Assembly (NCBI GenBank): GCA_021774575.1
Contig: JAJFIX010000045.1
Span: 1-64,000 of the forward strand
Direction: 5' to 3'
Length of the DNA: 64,000 bases
DNA from: Alphaproteobacteria bacterium
GTDB taxonomy: Bacteria > Pseudomonadota > Alphaproteobacteria > UBA6615
In this document: positions 25,565 to 37,213 of the stretch, one piece after another
Numbering within the stretch: the first letter of the stretch is position 1
Layout of the letters: each line of letters opens with the position of its first letter
Made by a program: the position numbers and the translations under genes
Notes under the pieces: generated by a model
Databases searched by the model: none
Told to the model about the DNA's origin: nothing
What the model saw: the letters and a program-made list of their open reading frames with translations, nothing else

Positions 25565-26128
25565 ATGCAAGCGAGCCTTGAAAGTTGCCCGGCCCTGGTG
25601 CTCAATGCCGACTTCCGGCCATTGAGCTATTTTCCCTTGTCCATTTGGCCGTGGTACGAGGCGGTCAAGGGCGCGCTTTCGGGGCGGGTAAATACGGTTG
25701 AAACCTATGATCGTACGGTGCACAGCCCAAGCATTGAACTGCAATTGCCCAGTGTCATATCCCTACGAGAATATGTCCGCCCGGCGCCTCGGCTGGCTTT
25801 CACTCGGTTTAACGTGTTCCTGCGTGATCGGTTTAGCTGCCAATATTGCAATATCCGCTTCCCGGTCGCCGAGCTAACCTTCGACCACGTGGTCCCGCGT
25901 AGCCGTGGCGGGGGAACCAATTGGGAAAATGTTGTTGCTGCCTGTGGCCAGCACAATCTGCAAAAAGGTAGCAAGACCCCCGAGGAGGCTGGATTGCACC
26001 TGACCCGGATCCCACGCAGACCGAGTAGTTGGGAATTGCAGCAGAACGGCCGCGCCTTCCCACCCAACTATCTGCATGAAAGCTGGGGCGATTATCTATA
26101 TTGGGATAGCGAGCTTGAGGCCTGCTAA
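25565..26128 (+). CDS. HNH endonuclease
   Basis: HNH nuclease of the kind conserved as a single copy in alphaproteobacteria; cellular role unknown, so it should not be taken for a homing enzyme. The N-terminal part includes LNADFRPLSYFPLS, and the zinc-supported HNH core carries CQYC (92-95), TFDHVVPRSRGG with His108, NWENVVAACGQHN with Cys127, His130 and Asn131. The start ATG at 25565 fits the conserved N-terminus and lies near a GGAG stretch. 4 bp overlap with coq7 on the opposite strand at the stops. Confidence 0.9.
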   Translation: MQASLESCPALVLNADFRPLSYFPLSIWPWYEAVKGALSGRVNTVETYDRTVHSPSIELQLPSVISLREYVRPAPRLAFTRFNVFLRDRFSCQYCNIRFPVAELTFDHVVPRSRGGGTNWENVVAACGQHNLQKGSKTPEEAGLHLTRIPRRPSSWELQQNGRAFPPNYLHESWGDYLYWDSELEAC

Positions 26129-26727
26129 AATCGGGTTGAGAGCCAGATGGCAGCCCGTGACCCCGCCTTAACAAAATTGGTCAGCGCATCATGGGCCGGG
26201 GCTTGCGCCGCCCCACCGGCAATGCCGGTGTCGCGATGCTCAAGTTCCTCCAGCCGGAATTCCTCGATTGTTTGCTTGAGCTCTACTTCGGTCTCATCGA
26301 GCCGTTCATTTTGATCACGGTAATGCTCGTCGATCACTTCTTCGACGGCGACGGTGCACGCCATCGCCGCCTTTTCGCCAAGCAGCGCCGTAGCAGCCCC
26401 GAGGGCGAAGCCGGCAACATGCCAGACCGGCGATAAAATCGTCGGCCGCACGCCGCGTTCAACAATCAAATCCTCAAACCGCGCCAAATGCCGTTGTTCA
26501 GCCTCGGCCATCTCACGTATTTTTGCCCCCACGGGACGATCACCGAGGACAGCTAGCTGGCCCTGGTAAATTCGCACGGCGCCATATTCACCCGCATGGT
26601 CGACGCGAACAATCTCGTCAATGAGGCGTTCGCGATCCGGGTCCCCTGGCAAGGGTCGGGGCCGCTGGGAGGAGCTGCGGCTAGAACTGGGGTGACGAGA
26701 CGCGCTCGCTGGCTTTTCATCAGTCAT
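26125..26727 (-). CDS. coq7: 5-demethoxyubiquinone hydroxylase Coq7 (first copy)
   Basis: Di-iron hydroxylase of ubiquinone synthesis, membrane-associated. Iron ligands are visible as the Glu of DHAGEYGAVRIY, Glu and His of AEAEQRH, Glu of VAVEEVIDEHY, and Glu and His of LEELEHRD. The length of 200 residues is normal. The N-terminus is serine- and proline-rich. A second paralogue lies at 36656-37213 on the other side of the mobile element. Confidence 0.95.
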   Translation of the reverse strand: MTDEKPASASRHPSSSRSSSQRPRPLPGDPDRERLIDEIVRVDHAGEYGAVRIYQGQLAVLGDRPVGAKIREMAEAEQRHLARFEDLIVERGVRPTILSPVWHVAGFALGAATALLGEKAAMACTVAVEEVIDEHYRDQNERLDETEVELKQTIEEFRLEELEHRDTGIAGGAAQAPAHDALTNFVKAGSRAAIWLSTRF

Positions 26728-27426: not shown

Positions 27427-27513
27427 GCGGGTGTGGCGGAACTGGTAGACGCGCCAGACTCAAAATCTGGTTCTCGCAAGGGAGTGGGGGTTCGATTCCC
27501 TCCACCCGCACCA
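27427..27513 (+). tRNA. tRNA-Leu (anticodon CAA)
   Basis: 87-nt cloverleaf. Acceptor stem GCGGGTG pairs with CACCCGC; the anticodon stem CCAGA/TCTGG encloses the loop CTCAAAA with anticodon CAA. A long class II variable arm is present, the T arm contains GGTTCGATTCC, and CCA is encoded at 27511-27513. Its 3' half is overlapped by the antisense end of a serine recombinase gene, marking it as the attachment site of the adjacent element. Confidence 0.97.
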
Positions 27514-29100
27514 TTCCTGTGCAAAAGTGGGCACCACTGGTTCCGCCGTATTTTTCTGCTGTTGCGCGGCGGCCATTAGCGCCAGGTCCGATCCCGATAT
27601 TCTAATCTCGTCTTCGCCGACGTCTATGCGGTCGATGAAGAGACGGAGATAGGCTTTGCGGAAGGGAGTGGAGCCGCCGGTGATCTGGGCGCGCATGGCC
27701 TTTGAGAAGGCATCCAGGCTGCTTTGGGCTATCGGCTTTATCGGTTGGTCTAGTTGGCGTTCATTCAACGCGATGAGGCGGATCAGCTGGTCTCTGTCTT
27801 GCTCGTGCTTGGCCTGCCTTTTCCTAAAACTCGGCGTCAGCTCAATGTAGCCGTCTTCAACACCCTCGAATAGCCGGTTGATTTTTTCATCAGCCTTGCG
27901 CTTCTCGCCCTTTAGGCGCTTTGATTCTTGCAGCAATCGCTCTTTGGCCGACGATGAGCGGCTGACCAGGGCGGCGGTCACTTTCCTCAGGCGTTCCGGT
28001 TCCAACACCTTGTCACAAAGTTGCTCGGCAACAAGGTCGTCCAGCAGTCCCATTGGCACCGTTCGGCCCTTGCAAGCCGTCGCACCAAGATCCGCCTTCT
28101 TGCCGCAGGTATAGTACCGGTACTTGCCGCTCTTGCCGGTTCTAAGGCGCATCGGTCCTCCGCAATCGCCGCAATGGGCGAGGCCGGTCAGTAACACCGG
28201 GCTGTTCACACTGCGCGGCGGTGTCGTCTTGGGATGGTTGCGGGCCAATCGGTTTTGAACCGCGATAAATGCCTCTTCGTCGATAATCACGGGGCTCGGC
28301 ATTTCCACCCATTCGTCGCGCGGTTTGAGGCGGCGCGTGCGGCTATCGAGCTTATTGAAGAAGTGCGTGCCCATGTAGGTCGTGCGCCGGAGCATTTGTT
28401 GGACGACCTGCACGCTAAAACCACCGCCGGTGCGATGGCGCAAACCCTTGCCATTGAGATAATTCACGATAGCCTTGATCCCCATCGGGCCGCTGCGGCC
28501 ATCGCCGTGCAGATAGAGCTTGAACGCTAGCTTGACGATTTTGGCTTCGTGATCCTCGATTGCCAATTTCCGCTTGCTCTTGTCGGCCCGGCGCTCGGCT
28601 TCGTAAGTCTTGTAGCCATAGGGGGGACGCGAGCCGTTCCAGAAGCCATTGCGAGCGTTTTCCATCATCGCCCGCAATGTGTGTTTGGCATTCTCAGCAC
28701 TTTGATGCTGATCAACGGCAGCGATGATCTGTTTCATCATCGTGCCATTGGGGTCGTCGGCGAAGGCTTGAGTTACCGACAACAACTTGACGCCATTCTT
28801 TTCGAGCTTGCGTTCATAGATACCGGCGTCAATGGCATCGCGGGCAAAACGTGACAGGCTATGCACGATAACCGCGTCTAACGGCCTATCGCTTCTACAA
28901 GCAAACGCAATCATGTCCTGGAAAATGGGGCGCTTGTCGGTCGTCGCACTGGCGCCGGGCTCGATAAATTCCCGAACCACCTCGAACCCATGGTCCGCGC
29001 AATAGCGCTGCGCCTGGGCACGCTGATCCGGGATGGATAGGTCGTGCTCGGCCTGGCGGGTCGTCGAAACACGGGCGTAAATAGCGGCCCTCTTGGCCAT
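27460..29100 (-). CDS. Large serine recombinase (integrase/excisionase)
   Basis: Site-specific recombinase cutting and rejoining DNA via a serine. The N-terminal resolvase domain has the catalytic serine at residue 12 (YARVSTTRQ) and a VHSLSRFARD segment. The middle recombinase domain (about 170-300) contains GGFSVQVVQQMLRRTTYMG. A zinc ribbon (CGDCGG and YYTCGKK, about 314-338) and a coiled coil (about 360-440) follow. The last 18 codons or so (WRESNPHSLARTRF) are antisense to tRNA-Leu, so the gene end is created by the attachment site. It is the last gene of the four-gene minus-strand operon. Confidence 0.93.
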   Translation of the reverse strand: MAKRAAIYARVSTTRQAEHDLSIPDQRAQAQRYCADHGFEVVREFIEPGASATTDKRPIFQDMIAFACRSDRPLDAVIVHSLSRFARDAIDAGIYERKLEKNGVKLLSVTQAFADDPNGTMMKQIIAAVDQHQSAENAKHTLRAMMENARNGFWNGSRPPYGYKTYEAERRADKSKRKLAIEDHEAKIVKLAFKLYLHGDGRSGPMGIKAIVNYLNGKGLRHRTGGGFSVQVVQQMLRRTTYMGTHFFNKLDSRTRRLKPRDEWVEMPSPVIIDEEAFIAVQNRLARNHPKTTPPRSVNSPVLLTGLAHCGDCGGPMRLRTGKSGKYRYYTCGKKADLGATACKGRTVPMGLLDDLVAEQLCDKVLEPERLRKVTAALVSRSSSAKERLLQESKRLKGEKRKADEKINRLFEGVEDGYIELTPSFRKRQAKHEQDRDQLIRLIALNERQLDQPIKPIAQSSLDAFSKAMRAQITGGSTPFRKAYLRLFIDRIDVGEDEIRISGSDLALMAAAQQQKNTAEPVVPTFAQEWCGWRESNPHSLARTRF

Positions 29101-29405: not shown

Positions 29406-30500
29406 TCACCACTGACCGAGCGCGTGTGCCGTAACGCGCGTGGCTATGTCTTGGCGCCATTTCGTCGGGTTGTGATGTTCGTCCAGGAGGCCATCCAGAC
29501 GTTCAATAATATCTTCGAGCTCAAGGGGGACGTTGGCATCGGTTATTATTTGCATCAGCGCGCCAATACCTTTGAACGAGCCGTATAGAGATTTCGCCTG
29601 CTCATAGAGCCGATAGTTCAGTTCGTTTTTGGGATCATAGGCTTTGATAAGCCCGGTTTGCGGCAGCGCATCGATTGCGCGTAGGAGGGAGGTCCACAGA
29701 GGATGCAATGGCCAGCGCGACCGATTTCTGTCCAAACTCGGCGTCAACAATTTGGTGTGCTTGTCCGCGAGTTCGCGCAGCAAGTCACCGCGAAAACATT
29801 CCAGGTCCAGCAACGACTTTATGCCGCCCGCTGCCAATCGCTTGGAGCGAACCTGGAATTCAACTCGCCACACGGCGTCATCGCATCCCCATAGATCATG
29901 AAACCAAACTTTCTGACTCTGCTCCCTGATCTCGGCTATTTTATCGTAAACCCGCACGACAATATCGCCGGTCCCAAATTGAAAGGTCTGGACTCTTTGA
30001 TGCTTGCGCCACTTTGTGTCTTTTGCCGCGCGCGATAGGAAATTACCCTCATCAAAATCAACCTCCGGCACATGGAAATCGAAGGCAAAATCGGCCCGCG
30101 CCACGACTTCGGGCCTCAGCACCGTCATGCCCATTGACCGGTACCACGCCCCCACCCGGTCCAGGAGGGCCTGACAGCCCTTCAGCCACAGGCCCTTACT
30201 CGCAAAACGCACATGGCAGGTCGGCTGCATTGTTTCAGTCAGGCGGATCTCAAAATCTTCATTTCCGAGAACATATTTATAGGGCTTTGCACCGTACGAT
30301 TTTAGGGCGAAGGTCTCCGTCCCGAGTGTGATCTCGCAAAATCGCTCGCCGTCTTGCTTCAGCTTTTCCCGCGCATAAGCCAGTTCGTCGAAGTCGAGAC
30401 GGCTGGTCGTCATTTCTAGGAAATACGACACGTAGAGACTGTCTAGGCCCTGTAGCAGTAACTTTGGTCCACTTTCGCTCGCCTGTAGTTCGCTCATCAT
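29406..30500 (-). CDS. Replication initiation factor-like protein (Rep_trans type)
   Basis: 364 residues resembling rolling-circle replication initiators of the Rep_trans/RstA group. The supporting segments are RADFAFDFHVPEVDF (about 130-144), then VRVYDKIAEIRE with the conserved tyrosine-aspartate-lysine, then VWRVEFQVRSKRL, in the usual order. The C-terminal half is helical. Nicking tyrosine assignment is not certain. In the operon it precedes the small protein and recombinase, suggesting the excised element replicates autonomously. Confidence 0.7.
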   Translation of the reverse strand: MMSELQASESGPKLLLQGLDSLYVSYFLEMTTSRLDFDELAYAREKLKQDGERFCEITLGTETFALKSYGAKPYKYVLGNEDFEIRLTETMQPTCHVRFASKGLWLKGCQALLDRVGAWYRSMGMTVLRPEVVARADFAFDFHVPEVDFDEGNFLSRAAKDTKWRKHQRVQTFQFGTGDIVVRVYDKIAEIREQSQKVWFHDLWGCDDAVWRVEFQVRSKRLAAGGIKSLLDLECFRGDLLRELADKHTKLLTPSLDRNRSRWPLHPLWTSLLRAIDALPQTGLIKAYDPKNELNYRLYEQAKSLYGSFKGIGALMQIITDANVPLELEDIIERLDGLLDEHHNPTKWRQDIATRVTAHALGQW

Positions 30501-30545: not shown

Positions 30546-31040
30546 TCAGAAATTAATCTGCCGAAAAATTTGTGTAAGATCCATCACGATGGCACTCGTT
30601 TTAATCGACATGAGGCTGTTTTTTCTCCTCGACTTCGCCGAGCTTGCCCCTGCCAAATCATCGACGATCTGGAAATCGATCACATCATCGTCCCATCCAA
30701 AAAATAAATATATCGTCCCGTCGCCATTTATCGCGCGGTCCCAAAGCACCTGGTTCAATTCGGTCTGTTGGTGCATAACGATGGCAAATGTTTCCAGCGT
30801 CGGCACAGGTACACGATAGCGGCCAAGTTCATAGAAAATAGCGGCGCGACGGACCTCATCAACATCGTATCTCCGGTGCCTGCCGGTGCCACTATACTTC
30901 CCCTCTTGGGGGTGCAGCAGATCGCTGGTCGTCCAGTGCTGAATTTGACGCATCAACCGGTTGATATCACTGGCTTTGCCAGAGCGACTGATCGTGTCGG
31001 CCATTTCGTGAAGGGTGTAGGTTCTGAGAGCCATAAACAT
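30546..31040 (-). CDS. MerR-family-like HTH regulator
   Basis: 164 residues with an N-terminal winged helix of the MerR type: TLHEMADTISRS, then TTSDLLHPQEGKYSGTGRHRRYDVDEVRRA, where the GTGRHRRYD wing is typical. The C-terminal part (residues 80-164) matches no effector domain I recognise. It is the first gene of the mobility operon and faces the SIR2 operon, so it is the likely controller of one or both through palindromes in the shared gap. It could equally act as an excisionase-type architectural protein. Confidence 0.75.
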   Translation of the reverse strand: MFMALRTYTLHEMADTISRSGKASDINRLMRQIQHWTTSDLLHPQEGKYSGTGRHRRYDVDEVRRAAIFYELGRYRVPVPTLETFAIVMHQQTELNQVLWDRAINGDGTIYLFFGWDDDVIDFQIVDDLAGASSAKSRRKNSLMSIKTSAIVMDLTQIFRQINF

Positions 31041-31531: not shown

Positions 31532-32848
31532 ATGAGCGAGACAGAGGTTGAAGGAAAAGCTGTTACGGATGCCGATCAAATTGAAGGGCTAGCTAAGGAG
31601 GTTAGTCCTGTTACACCCCCCCCTATAAACAATCCTTCACACGATCCTTATCGTCGTACAACAGACCTGTTGCAACGATTAGCTCCTAGTAAAATGCGCA
31701 TTAGTTTTTTGATTGGCGCCGGCTGCCCACTAGCAATCCAGGTGCCAAAAAATGGCAAGATAACACCACTAATCCCGGAGATTATTGGCCTCACTACGCA
31801 AGTGAAAGCTGCGCTGGATATAGATTCTGATCTCAAAAATATTGCCAGCGAGATTTGGGATCGCGTCATTGGCCGAGGAATTCCGACGCCGACGATTGAA
31901 GACGTTCTCAGCCATATCCGGACGCTTAAATCACTCTCCGGAACCGGTGGTATTGACGGGTTTTCCGATGATCTTCTCGGAATGCTTGATCGTGCAATTT
32001 GCGAATGCGTCAGGGAGATAGTAAATGTGCCGCTACCGACGAGTGATACGCCCTATCACGTTTTAGCAAGTTGGATAAAAACTATTGCCCGCGAAAAGCC
32101 TGTTGAGATTTTTACTACAAATTATGATTTGCTCTTAGAGCAAGCTTTAGAAGAGCGGCAAGTTCCTTATTTTGATGGGTTTATTGGAGGTGACAGCTCA
32201 TTTCTTGATCTCGAATCTATGGCCGAGGACGATTTGCCTGCCCGTTGGGCACGCCTTTGGAAGGTCCACGGATCGATTAACTGGTGGATGACCGAGAAAG
32301 AGAAAATTCGGCGGAGTCGCGACAAGATAGATGGCGAACAGCTTCTAATCTATCCGTCACATTTAAAATACAATCAGAGCCGCCAAATGCCTTATTACGC
32401 CATGCTGGATAGGTTGCGCGTATTTCTGAGAACCGACCAGTGTGTGCTTTTGACTTGCGGCTACTCATTCGCCGACGAGCACATTAATGCTTATATCAGT
32501 CAGGGTCTTTCCGGTAATCCCAACGCTTCATGCATTGCGATGATTTATGGGGACCGAGCGGGTGTTCCGAACGCTATTGAACTAGCGGAGCAACACGCAA
32601 ACTTATCCATTTTAGCGGCGGATGGCGGTATTATTGGTACTGTTAATCGCAATTGGCATAGCGACGAGAAAGATGGGACTAATCCGGCGAACCCACTTAC
32701 CGTCGGAACAGATCTTCCTGGTTCACGGAGCAGTGCACCTGCAGAACAATGCAAATGGCTATTGGGAGATTTTGCAGCTCTAGGACGTTTTCTTGCCTTT
32801 CAGCTTTCTAATAGGGATTTAGAAGAGGGACGTCACGATGCGTCCTGA
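31532..32848 (+). CDS. SIR2-family NADase of a SIR2-HerA defence pair
   Basis: 438 residues. The SIR2_2 fold has the nucleotide-binding GAG motif at 62-64 (FLIGAGCPL), TTNYD at 195-199 with the catalytic asparagine, and the catalytic His246 in KVHGS. A late GYSFADEHIN segment at 310-319 closes the fold. Known SIR2-HerA systems use this type of protein to degrade NAD+ (and nucleic acid) on phage infection; activity here is inferred. The N-terminal 45 residues are acidic and unmatched. The last 11 bases overlap HerA. Confidence 0.92.
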   Translation: MSETEVEGKAVTDADQIEGLAKEVSPVTPPPINNPSHDPYRRTTDLLQRLAPSKMRISFLIGAGCPLAIQVPKNGKITPLIPEIIGLTTQVKAALDIDSDLKNIASEIWDRVIGRGIPTPTIEDVLSHIRTLKSLSGTGGIDGFSDDLLGMLDRAICECVREIVNVPLPTSDTPYHVLASWIKTIAREKPVEIFTTNYDLLLEQALEERQVPYFDGFIGGDSSFLDLESMAEDDLPARWARLWKVHGSINWWMTEKEKIRRSRDKIDGEQLLIYPSHLKYNQSRQMPYYAMLDRLRVFLRTDQCVLLTCGYSFADEHINAYISQGLSGNPNASCIAMIYGDRAGVPNAIELAEQHANLSILAADGGIIGTVNRNWHSDEKDGTNPANPLTVGTDLPGSRSSAPAEQCKWLLGDFAALGRFLAFQLSNRDLEEGRHDAS

Positions 32849-34760
32849 TCCCACTCGAATAGGCTCGGTACAGGATGTGGCGGGCACGACTATCAGCGTC
32901 TCGCTAGTGAACGAAACTGTCACAGGTCTCAGCGTCTTCAAGGGAGAATCATACAGGGTAGGCCAAGTCGGGAGCTTTGTTCGCATTCCATTAGGTTATA
33001 CTTCATTGTTCGGTATCGTATCCCAAGTTGGGGCCGGTGCAGCACCAAAAACGGATGGCGATATGCATCCTTGGGGCAGTCAATGGTTGAAAGTCCAACT
33101 TGTAGGTGAAAGAAGCCCGGAAGGGCGGTTCGAACGGGGAGTCTCTCAGCACCCAACAATAAATGACCCTGTTCACATAGTAACAGAGGATAATCTTCGC
33201 GAGATATACGGCCCGGGTGACCCCACCGATTTTGTTTCAGTCGGGCACCTTGCTAGTGCTGAGTCAATTCCCGCGCTCATCAACATCAACAAATTGATTA
33301 CGCGCCATTCGGCAGTTGTCGGAACCACTGGTGCAGGAAAGTCAACGACCGTAGCCGGTCTGCTTGCATCTCTCTCCAATCCCGACCGCTACCCTTCCGC
33401 CCGAATCGTGGTTTTAGATATTCACGGCGAATATGCTAAAGCTTTGGAAGATCGTGCCAGCGTTTTCCGGATTGCACCAGATATTGAGAAAGGTGAACGG
33501 TCGCTTCATATCCCATTCTGGGCACTAAGCTTTGATGAACTGACCAAACTTGCCTTTGGCAAATTAGAAGGAAAACCTCGTGCTGCTATTGAGGATGCAG
33601 TGATTGCTCTGAAGCGCGAGTCCTTGAGGAAGCAACCACGGGAGGGAGTAAGCCCTGAGCGGCTTACAATCGACACGCCTGTACCGTTTTGCCTGCATAA
33701 GCTTTGGTTGGACTTCCATGAGCGTGAACATCGAACAGTGGTCCCAAAACCGGGGGCCGCTGCTGAAGAGGTTGAGTCAGCGTTCGTACTCGACGATAAC
33801 GACCAACCTATACAAGTTGGCGACGCTATGGCTGTCGTGCCTCCCCAGTATCGTACCGTTAAGACAACTGGCACTGCAGATGAGCGAGTTCAATTGGGGC
33901 CAGATCCTCTTAATTTGGGCCAACAATTGGCGGTCCTAGCGTCAAAATTGCGTAGCCCGCAGTTCTCTTTTCTTTTCAATCCAGGTGATTATAGCCCCTC
34001 CATTGACGGTACTGTAGACAAAGACCTCAACATACTCCTCGAAGATTGGATCGGCGGGCCGTCGCCTATCACAATTCTAGATCTGTCGGGAATTCCTTCG
34101 ACAGTTCTAAATGACCTAATTGGCGCGTTGTTGCGTATACTCTATGACGCCCTATTTTGGGGGCAGAAATTGCCTGAGGGTGGGCGTTTGCGCCCTCTCT
34201 TGTTAGTTCTCGAAGAGGCGCACGCGTATCTGGGTAAGGAGCACTCCGGCTCAGCGGCAGCGGCAGTCCGGCGGATTGCAAAGGAAGGACGAAAATATGG
34301 CGTCGGTGCCATGATTGTGAGCCAACGGCCTTCCGAGATTGACCCAACCATTTTATCTCAATGCGGTACAATTTTTGCGATGCGATTGGCCAACGAATTA
34401 GATCGTGGCCAGATCGCAGGGGCCGCTTCCGATAATCTCAAAGGATTGTTCGACATGCTGCCTGTCCTGCGCACTGGCGAAGCTATTATTGTTGGAGAAG
34501 CTGTGAGCCTGCCGATAAGAACCCTGATTGATCCACCAGACATGAATCGAACACCGGATAGCGATGATCCACGTGTCGTTGTACGTGGTGACCCGAATGT
34601 TGACGGGTTTGAGAGCGAGGGTGGCTGGGCGGTGCCGCGATACAAGGATGACTATACAATTATTATGAGGCAGTGGCGCCAGCAGACCCCTCACTACGAA
34701 CATAAGAAGGTGGAAGCGGCGGAACCAGAAACGGACGGTAAAAAAGGGGACAAATCATGA
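32838..34760 (+). CDS. HerA/DUF87 hexameric ATPase of the defence pair
   Basis: 640 residues. An N-terminal HAS-barrel (about 1-95) is followed by a RecA-like ATPase. Walker A is GTTGAGKST (162-170), then VVLDIHGEYA (191-200), Walker B LLLVLEEAH (454-462) and VSQRPSEIDPTILSQCGT (494-511), the sensor/arginine-finger region. HerA forms hexameric rings that assemble with SIR2 dodecamers in the known systems. Start ATG lies within the SIR2 gene with GAGGG upstream, giving translational coupling; its stop overlaps the KTSC start (ATGA). Confidence 0.94.
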   Translation: MRPDPTRIGSVQDVAGTTISVSLVNETVTGLSVFKGESYRVGQVGSFVRIPLGYTSLFGIVSQVGAGAAPKTDGDMHPWGSQWLKVQLVGERSPEGRFERGVSQHPTINDPVHIVTEDNLREIYGPGDPTDFVSVGHLASAESIPALININKLITRHSAVVGTTGAGKSTTVAGLLASLSNPDRYPSARIVVLDIHGEYAKALEDRASVFRIAPDIEKGERSLHIPFWALSFDELTKLAFGKLEGKPRAAIEDAVIALKRESLRKQPREGVSPERLTIDTPVPFCLHKLWLDFHEREHRTVVPKPGAAAEEVESAFVLDDNDQPIQVGDAMAVVPPQYRTVKTTGTADERVQLGPDPLNLGQQLAVLASKLRSPQFSFLFNPGDYSPSIDGTVDKDLNILLEDWIGGPSPITILDLSGIPSTVLNDLIGALLRILYDALFWGQKLPEGGRLRPLLLVLEEAHAYLGKEHSGSAAAAVRRIAKEGRKYGVGAMIVSQRPSEIDPTILSQCGTIFAMRLANELDRGQIAGAASDNLKGLFDMLPVLRTGEAIIVGEAVSLPIRTLIDPPDMNRTPDSDDPRVVVRGDPNVDGFESEGGWAVPRYKDDYTIIMRQWRQQTPHYEHKKVEAAEPETDGKKGDKS

Positions 34761-34969
34761 GCTGGATTAATACGCCCGAGTCTTCAAACATAGCTAGGTT
34801 CAAGTACGACAATGAAAATATGGTGTTGACCGTAGAGTTCAATAAAGGGGGTCAGTATAACTATTTTGATGTGCCGGAGAGCACCTTCGCGAGCATGAGA
34901 ATTGCCTCTTCAAAGGGGCAATATCTTGCCCGAAATATTAAAGGCCGATACAGGTACGCTAGGGTGTGA
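34757..34969 (+). CDS. KTSC-domain small protein coupled to HerA
   Basis: 70 residues, a single KTSC domain: SSNIARFKYDNENMVLTVEF, then QYNYFDVPESTF and the conserved basic end SKGQYLARNIKGRY. The domain is known from the end of some lysyl-tRNA synthetases and from many small phage and plasmid proteins; its function is unknown. Start ATG overlaps the HerA stop by 4 bp, so its dose is tied to HerA. Placement makes it a probable third component or regulator of the SIR2-HerA system. Confidence 0.9.
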   Translation: MSWINTPESSNIARFKYDNENMVLTVEFNKGGQYNYFDVPESTFASMRIASSKGQYLARNIKGRYRYARV

Positions 34970-35072
34970 CATCACAGGCAGCCTAAGTATTTTGGCGTTA
35001 TTTTAAAGCAATTTTTTTGTAAACCGATGCTGAATGAATGATCTTGATTCCGGTTTATAGGAGGTAAAAGCG

Positions 35073-36374
35073 GTGGATTTTCTGGGTCTAAGCATTGGAA
35101 TACCGATTGGAGCAGCGGTAGTCGGTCTGATTGTTACCTCAATTCTAAAATCAAAATTGGATGTCCAAAATAGGTCTATTTTAGAAAAAAGTGAGCGGCT
35201 TGAAAAATTGGAAACTGAGCTCCAGGTCAAATCAGATGATCAAATATCGAAGGTGAAATTGATTGCTGGTCTTGAAGAGGAACTGAAGCAGGAGCGCAAG
35301 CAATTTGATGAAAAGCTAACTCTTCTTGACGACGCCAAAAACACGATGGCGATCCAGTTCAAAAATCTAGCCAACGATATTTTTGAAGAAAAAGGAAAAA
35401 AATTTACAGAAAAAAATAAGGAGACTCTGGAGATTATTCTAGGCCCGCTGAAGGAAAATCTTGATGGATTTAGGAAAAAAATCGAGGAGACATATATAAG
35501 TGAAACGAAGGAACGGGTTGTCTTAAAAGAAGAATTAAAGAGGCTCGCACAATTGAACGAACGCCTTGGGGATGAGGCAGAAAGCCTCACCAATGCCCTT
35601 GTGGGGCAAAGTCAAACTCAGGGTGCTTGGGGTGAAATGATCCTTGAAACGTTGCTGGAACAATCAGGGTTAGTAAATGGTGTTCAGTACCATAGCCAAC
35701 ATTCAGGGACAAACGAGGAAGGTCAACGACTGAGACCTGACGTCATCATACGCCTACCCGAAGGTAAGGACATTATAGTCGACTCAAAAGTGTCTCTTAC
35801 AGCCTATCGACAGTTTTGTGCAGCCACCGATAAGGACGCCTCAGCCAAGTATTTAAGTGATCATGTGAAATCACTTCGTACACATGTTAAGGAACTCGCG
35901 GACAAAAATTATTATGATCTGACCAATGTCAACTCTCTCGACTACGTATTGATGTTTGTTCCAATTGAAGGGGCTTTCAGCATAGCTGTTCACAGCAATC
36001 ATGAATTGGTAACGGAGGCCTTGGCGAGCAATGTTGTTATAGTTACGCCCACCACCCTTCTGTTGGCACTAAGAACCATCGAAAATATTTGGCGCTATGA
36101 GGCGCAAACGCAGAATGCTCAACAAATTGCGACTAAAGCCGGCCAGTTATACGATAAATTCGTGGGATTTGTTGGTGACGTTGAGGATGTGGGAAAGCTA
36201 ATTGGGAAGGCCAGTACAGCACAAGAAAATGCAATAAAAAAATTGTCAGAGGGGAAGGGAAATCTCGTCAATAGAACTGAAGAATTAAAGAAACTGGGCG
36301 CCAAAGCAAATAAATCTCTGCCAACGATATTACTTGAAGAAATAGAACCAGATCAGACAGACGATTTATCCTAA
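35073..36374 (+). CDS. rmuC: DNA recombination protein RmuC
   Basis: 433 residues. An N-terminal membrane helix (about 4-26) is followed by a long coiled coil (27-170). The RmuC nuclease-like domain includes QGAWGEMILETLLEQSGLV, DVIIRLPEGKDIIVDSKV and LDYVLMFVPIEGAFS, as in E. coli RmuC, which limits recombination at inverted repeats. GTG start with a GGAGG site 8 bp upstream. It is A/T rich and 103 bp from KTSC on the same strand, possibly in the same operon. It could be the host's sole copy displaced by the element, but its base composition matches the cargo. Confidence 0.9.
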   Translation: MDFLGLSIGIPIGAAVVGLIVTSILKSKLDVQNRSILEKSERLEKLETELQVKSDDQISKVKLIAGLEEELKQERKQFDEKLTLLDDAKNTMAIQFKNLANDIFEEKGKKFTEKNKETLEIILGPLKENLDGFRKKIEETYISETKERVVLKEELKRLAQLNERLGDEAESLTNALVGQSQTQGAWGEMILETLLEQSGLVNGVQYHSQHSGTNEEGQRLRPDVIIRLPEGKDIIVDSKVSLTAYRQFCAATDKDASAKYLSDHVKSLRTHVKELADKNYYDLTNVNSLDYVLMFVPIEGAFSIAVHSNHELVTEALASNVVIVTPTTLLLALRTIENIWRYEAQTQNAQQIATKAGQLYDKFVGFVGDVEDVGKLIGKASTAQENAIKKLSEGKGNLVNRTEELKKLGAKANKSLPTILLEEIEPDQTDDLS

Positions 36375-36655: not shown

Positions 36656-37213
36656 TTGCCTGATCCGACTGGGCGAACCATAGCGCGCATCGCAAAGGTC
36701 AATCACGCCGGCGAGTATGGCGCGATCCGCATTTATCGGGCCCAGATTTTTGTCGCCCAGTTGTTGTATCCCGACATCGTGCCAATTCTGCAGAATATGC
36801 TCTCGGACGAGATCGATCACTGCGACCGTTTTCGCCATGCCATGCGCGACCTATCCGCCAGGCCATGCCGGATCATGGGCCTATGGGGACAAGGCGGTTT
36901 TGTCCTTGGCGCTATGACGGCTCTGCTTGGACGCCAGGGCATTTGGATTTGTACCGCCGCTATCGAACGAACTGTTCATCAGCATTTGGAAGGCCAGATC
37001 AAATTCCTGACTGATTGCGACTCGCAGCTCGTCGATTTGATCAAGGACATTCAGATCGACGAACTGTCGCATCTGCGCAATGCGGTGGATCGCATCCGGG
37101 TACAACATACCGGTGCGCGTCTTTTAGACTGCGGCATCGTGATCGCCACCAACATAGCGATATGGCTATCCACCTGGGGCGATTCTCAACGCATGGCGCG
37201 CAAGATTGCCTAG
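36656..37213 (+). CDS. Coq7-like di-iron hydroxylase, second paralogue
   Basis: 185 residues of the Coq7 family. Ligands are all present: Glu in NHAGEYGAIRIY, Glu and His in LSDEIDHCDRF, Glu in AIERTVHQH, Glu and His in DELSHLRNAV. It differs strongly from the copy at 26125, so it is an old paralogue rather than a recent duplicate. The start is a TTG with no good ribosome site and the frame stays open upstream without ATG, so the real start is uncertain. Possible roles are another quinone hydroxylation step or hydroxylation under different oxygen supply. Confidence 0.8.
   Translation: MPDPTGRTIARIAKVNHAGEYGAIRIYRAQIFVAQLLYPDIVPILQNMLSDEIDHCDRFRHAMRDLSARPCRIMGLWGQGGFVLGAMTALLGRQGIWICTAAIERTVHQHLEGQIKFLTDCDSQLVDLIKDIQIDELSHLRNAVDRIRVQHTGARLLDCGIVIATNIAIWLSTWGDSQRMARKIA

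Follow-up and report, generated by a model that had tools for sequence, protein, structure and literature searches.

The closest described relative of the locus studied here is the SIR2-HerA complex of the PDB group 8WIV, 8WOC and 8W9L, probably the one of Zhen et al. 2024 (PMC11514289). Because the 696-residue HerA chain of 8WIV ends in a KTSC domain, KTSC is already part of a solved SIR2-HerA system. A two-gene form of SIR2-HerA is found with other HerA clades (PDB 8J4U group and loci of the L094 type); it likewise has SIR2 directly ahead of HerA on one strand, but it has no HerA-adjacent KTSC, and its HerA is only about 30% identical to the one described below. HerA coupled with KTSC has also been noted, as an unpublished observation, in systems in which an endoDNase replaces SIR2, and SIR2 and DNases were proposed to be mutually exclusive in HerA systems (Iyer et al. 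2022, PMC9503650). As for RmuC, the Shield protein ShdA combines an RmuC domain with an N-terminal membrane anchor in phage defence; it acts alone and has been reported only in Pseudomonas (PMC10270631). A further RmuC, associated with DRT and a reverse transcriptase beside it, is represented in PADLOC by the model RTasRmuC.

The window analysed here (the whole stretch of 64,000 nucleotides) contains genes for SIR2, HerA, a KTSC-domain protein and RmuC in a row. Table 1 shows their positions and those of the neighbouring features. The ORF calls bore out the four-gene order on a single strand as described in the first-pass annotation, including the overlaps of 11 bp between SIR2 and HerA and of 4 bp (ATGA) between HerA and KTSC, and the gap of 103 bp between KTSC and RmuC. 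The catalytic motifs are intact in SIR2 (GAG62, TTNYD195 with N197, and VHGS245 with H246), in HerA (Walker A GTTGAGKST162 and Walker B LLVLEEAH455) and in RmuC (GAWGE184, RPDV221 and VDSK236). The locus has the sequence features of a SIR2-HerA system, a SIR2-family gene and an adjacent HerA gene on the same strand with intact motifs in both. The rmuC gene has its own ribosome-binding site (AGGAGGT), and the gap that separates it from KTSC showed no terminator-like stem. The GC contents of SIR2, HerA and RmuC are below those of most flanking genes, with RmuC the lowest (0.421 vs 0.518 for HerA). PADLOC models match SIR2, HerA and RmuC, and KTSC has no PADLOC model.

Table 1. Features of the operon and its surroundings in the window, and loci of the 345-aa family elsewhere.
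Feature	Location	Strand	Length	Evidence or remark
tRNA-Leu (CAA), probable attachment site of the carrier element	27427..27513	+		ARAGORN
Large serine recombinase (Resolvase, Recombinase, zinc ribbon)	27460..29100	-		Pfam 1.5e-29 / 6.6e-17 / 2e-15
Rep_trans-like replication initiation protein (weak, below gathering score)	29406..30500	-		PF02486 E=0.00067
MerR-like helix-turn-helix protein (weak)	30546..31040	-		PF13411 E=0.00095
SIR2, predicted NADase effector	31532..32848	+	438 aa	PF13289 (SIR2_2) 5.7e-19; PADLOC SIR2 PDLC04094 413 bits; PDB 8w9l_A E=1e-89
HerA-type hexameric ATPase/DNA translocase	32838..34760	+	640 aa	PF01935 (DUF87/HerA) 4.6e-36; PADLOC HerA PDLC04105 517 bits; PDB 8wiv_A E=1e-198
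KTSC-domain protein, conserved third component of its HerA clade	34757..34969	+	70 aa	PF13619 1e-21; matches residues 634-696 of 8wiv_A; 59/59 checkable clade loci
RmuC-family nuclease, likely N-terminal membrane helix, accessory gene and second rmuC copy of the genome	35073..36374	+	433 aa, GTG start	PF02646 1.2e-102
345-aa family	L117:10547-11581; L028:8108-9142; L241; L243; L053; L061		345 aa	directly behind KTSC

Both the window SIR2 and the window HerA find their best PDB match in one solved complex (8w9l/8wiv group, with 8wld, 8woc, 8wod and 8wof shared). The window HerA aligns to residues 11-587 of the 8WIV chain, and the window KTSC aligns to the domain at its C-terminus (Table 1). The difference is that KTSC is fused to HerA in 8WIV, whereas it is a separate gene overlapping HerA here. 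Compared with the HerA-KTSC-endoDNase systems of PMC9503650, the window locus shares the coupling of HerA with KTSC but has SIR2.

To place the HerA of the window among its relatives, HerA proteins were gathered with a HerA alignment from genome and viral contigs, plasmids, and 397 evenly drawn Pseudomonadota genomes. Their scores fall into two sharply separate groups, one above 650 bits and the other below about 420 bits. The 60 distinct loci above 650 bits form the clade of the window HerA; one of them (L126) ends at HerA and another (L062) starts at HerA. Wherever the sequence extends, all clade loci have SIR2 upstream and KTSC downstream of HerA, and KTSC lies directly after HerA or is fused to it in all 59 of the distinct loci where a check was possible. 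In the evenly drawn sample of 397 genomes, taken independently, KTSC followed the clade HerA in 10 of 10 cases. Among more than 100 HerA loci below about 420 bits, many of which have SIR2, an adjacent KTSC was found in none. Because any KTSC gene at all is present in only 54 of the 397 genomes, the linkage of KTSC with HerA is not background. The 25 carrier genomes hold 28 KTSC genes, and the HerA-adjacent copy is the sole KTSC in 22 of the 25. We use the name SIR2-HerA-KTSC subtype for loci with KTSC directly after HerA, as in the window, or fused to it.

By the test that the first-pass annotation set, co-occurrence in other genomes, KTSC holds up completely within one HerA clade. The statement of that annotation that KTSC is not part of the described core holds for PADLOC, which lacks a KTSC model, and fails for the structural record, where the solved HerA carries KTSC at its end, and for PMC9503650, which notes the HerA-KTSC coupling. 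A literature search found no paper naming SIR2-HerA together with KTSC, and KTSC as a constant third gene marking a whole HerA clade appeared in none of the papers and libraries searched. The subtype is partly known, being documented by structure and absent from PADLOC.

Could KTSC be a separate small gene, such as an antitoxin-like or phage-derived domain, that is merely transferred along with HerA? Free KTSC genes do exist elsewhere, some beside prophage-like genes, and a check for a hidden HerA beside them found none. However, the unbroken linkage in the clade argues against mere co-transfer, as does the start/stop coupling of the two genes: in 53 clade loci the start of KTSC is placed -20 to +42 bp relative to the end of HerA. 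Mapped on a tree built from 109 HerA sequences, the KTSC state changes once if both contig-end loci are omitted, or twice if L126 is scored as lacking KTSC; the single change also opposes co-transfer. Furthermore, natural HerA-KTSC fusions occur in two loci (L123:1128-3239 and L049:359-2572) and resemble the solved 8WIV chain. We regard co-transfer as very improbable.

We consider it likely that the locus is a SIR2-HerA anti-phage system of the KTSC subtype, borne on a mobile element and NADase-based, with KTSC as an accessory of HerA. The defence mode is probably NADase-based abortive infection. By analogy with published SIR2-HerA work, SIR2 would assemble into a complex with HerA, a hexameric ATPase that translocates DNA. 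A change in the HerA assembly, brought about by phage DNA or by a replication structure, would switch on the SIR2 NADase, and active SIR2 would drain NAD+ so that infection stops. KTSC, which is fused to the HerA C-terminus in some relatives, would here be made by translational coupling just after HerA; most likely it would bind to the hexamer and help HerA by contacting nucleic acid or by gating. The domain has been described as DNA-binding (PMC9503650) and elsewhere as RNA-binding (PMC7824862), which counts against a firm assignment of its role. The subtype is a clean division of a widely studied defence system, defined by a third component missing from PADLOC. Since that component is tied to a domain that can be seen in HerA structures already solved, the role of KTSC is directly testable by deletion.

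RmuC behaves differently from KTSC. Every clade locus scored for RmuC had at least 700 bp of downstream sequence, and RmuC was found behind KTSC in 1 of 59, the window itself. This rules out RmuC as a fixed fourth gene of the operon; by the co-occurrence test of the first-pass annotation, RmuC is a rare neighbour in the clade. The N-terminus of the window RmuC, FLGLSIGIPIGAAVVGLIV, is hydrophobic at residues 3-21 (mean Kyte-Doolittle 2.34) and is likely a membrane anchor. An RmuC domain with such a helix is also found in Shield, and the likeness seen here is that of the domain and its helix; ShdA acts alone and has been reported only in Pseudomonas. The PADLOC RTasRmuC model gave the window RmuC 393 bits, but no reverse transcriptase domain was found among the neighbouring ORFs scanned around the operon, and the model also matches housekeeping RmuC. 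Indeed, the closest relative of the window RmuC, with 54% identity, is a chromosomal rmuC in the def-fmt-truA-dapE neighbourhood, and it scores 448 bits. Because this housekeeping RmuC outscores the window copy, the RTasRmuC match is not defence-specific, and we discarded it as a defence signal.

The genomic distribution of RmuC was also informative. While 25 of the 28 carrier genomes have one RmuC, the genome of the window has two, the other being the housekeeping copy (G000:C45) in the usual dapE-truA-fmt-def neighbourhood. The window RmuC is about 50% identical to the housekeeping RmuC of other lineages. Since its nearest relatives are housekeeping rmuC genes, it gives the impression of a housekeeping gene that has been captured. 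The RmuC records inspected in the plasmid and phage collections were mostly chromosome-like housekeeping loci, and the search of viral contigs returned one fragment. On the other hand, three further loci, all distant from the clade, have RmuC immediately downstream of HerA. In L094 (5268-13780), from a Dehalococcoidia genome with three RmuC copies, the genes after SIR2-HerA-RmuC encode a DNA methylase resembling type III mod and a helicase-like protein (res), which we read as type III restriction-modification. L116 (1-4659, Akkermansia) has a HerA truncated at the contig end, then RmuC and then an OLD-like ATPase, and L065 has a HerA of a different type next to the only RmuC of that genome. 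No RmuC was found at other positions in the neighbourhoods of the 209 HerA loci. Over all of these loci about 0.01 HerA-RmuC adjacencies would be expected by chance (density 2.9e-7 RmuC per base), a figure that assumes uniform placement and ignores the clustering of accessory genes in islands. Given the three loci, the HerA-RmuC pairing is not clearly random; it recurs, yet it is rare.

In six other clade loci the position behind KTSC is taken by a 345-aa protein that starts -3 to +6 bp after KTSC and has the motif GDIV...IECKFDK (Table 1). The six loci come from Alphaproteobacteria (a Paracoccus plasmid among them), from a viral contig and from a member of the Chitinophagaceae. Every copy found lies in a SIR2-HerA-KTSC locus (plasmids 1/1, viral contigs 1/1, and genomes 2/2 among 398 genomes), which makes the family a candidate dedicated fourth gene of SIR2-HerA-KTSC. 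No match to the family was found in Pfam or PADLOC. The predicted order of strands and helices fits a PD-(D/E)XK core. Foldseek with a low-confidence AlphaFold model (pLDDT 52.6) gave EcoT38I as the best match, followed by many EcoRV chains; with all E values above 0.1 these matches are not significant and no more than suggestive of a restriction-enzyme-like fold. The six loci combine SIR2 with a nuclease-like gene, and the window combines SIR2 with RmuC, in contrast to the proposed exclusion of SIR2 and DNases (PMC9503650). This unnamed family bears on that published idea, and it is the most original lead of the analysis, lying outside the window. In other loci the slot behind KTSC holds DUF2130, Shedu, Cas4-like or RNase-H-like genes. 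Whether RmuC is distantly related to the 345-aa family or to DUF2130 was examined with hhalign; this was rejected because no significant similarity resulted and the alignment was restricted to a short D...(D/E)xK stretch. Coiled-coil genes of the DUF2130 type recur beside SIR2-HerA-KTSC loci (L038:709-2001, L247:1-978 and L026:9661-10962). On a Klebsiella plasmid (L354:1-9755), SIR2-HerA lies inside a DUF499/DUF1156/SNF2 gene set.

Is RmuC then a passenger, that is, a captured housekeeping-type rmuC that landed by chance behind the defence genes? We lean towards this explanation. The chromosomal location of its closest relative, the higher RTasRmuC score of that relative and the difference in GC from HerA all point this way, and so does the nearest relative of the locus, L038, whose HerA is 68% identical and which has no RmuC. 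At odds with a passenger are the intact catalytic residues of the gene, the lack of any other RmuC around the HerA genes of the clade, and the recurrence of HerA-RmuC adjacency in the three distant loci. That recurrence can in part be explained by island clustering, which the uniform-placement null leaves out of account.

The same recurrence, set against its low chance expectation, is also among the arguments for RmuC as a true fourth module in an interchangeable nuclease slot behind KTSC, with NAD+ depletion and DNA degradation acting together. The tight placement of the 345-aa family behind KTSC and its confinement to these loci fit such a slot, as do the DUF2130, Shedu, Cas4-like and RNase-H-like genes that fill it elsewhere. 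However, RmuC occupies the slot in a single clade locus, its separate ribosome-binding site, 103-bp gap and GC content set it apart from the other three genes, and its profile has no significant relation to the 345-aa family or DUF2130. In addition, other neighbours are transposases, siderophore genes and restriction systems, which is the ordinary variety of an island. We therefore think it unlikely that RmuC is a functional module. In a broader form, SIR2-HerA-KTSC would work as a machine of three subunits, behind which one nuclease module can be exchanged for another (RmuC here, the 345-aa family elsewhere), a proposal we hold to be doubtful; if it is true, NAD+ depletion and DNA cleavage would be paired as effectors under one HerA sensor. 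Regardless, we propose that RmuC is an optional nuclease, gained separately, or a passenger. If it takes part, it may serve as a second weapon that breaks down DNA near the membrane.

The operon appears to have arrived on an integrated element. To its left, on the opposite strand, are the genes for the MerR-like protein, the Rep_trans-like protein, a 92-aa ORF and the serine recombinase, and the 3' end of the recombinase reading frame runs inside the tRNA-Leu gene. This junction is likely the left end of the element. The same tRNA adjoins a VTT gene in four relatives, and a synteny comparison found nothing in common with these relatives in the gene order to the right of the tRNA. A repeat search within the window found no second copy of the tRNA end and no right end of the element to match the left one. 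Further right of the operon are ordinary metabolic and regulatory genes. Plasmid copies of SIR2-HerA-KTSC loci sit among mobile genes. Two COQ7 genes, 33% identical to each other, flank the element region (26125-26727 and 36656-37213). The right-hand COQ7 is divergent and probably an acquired gene, since a search of the relatives found no equivalent of it.
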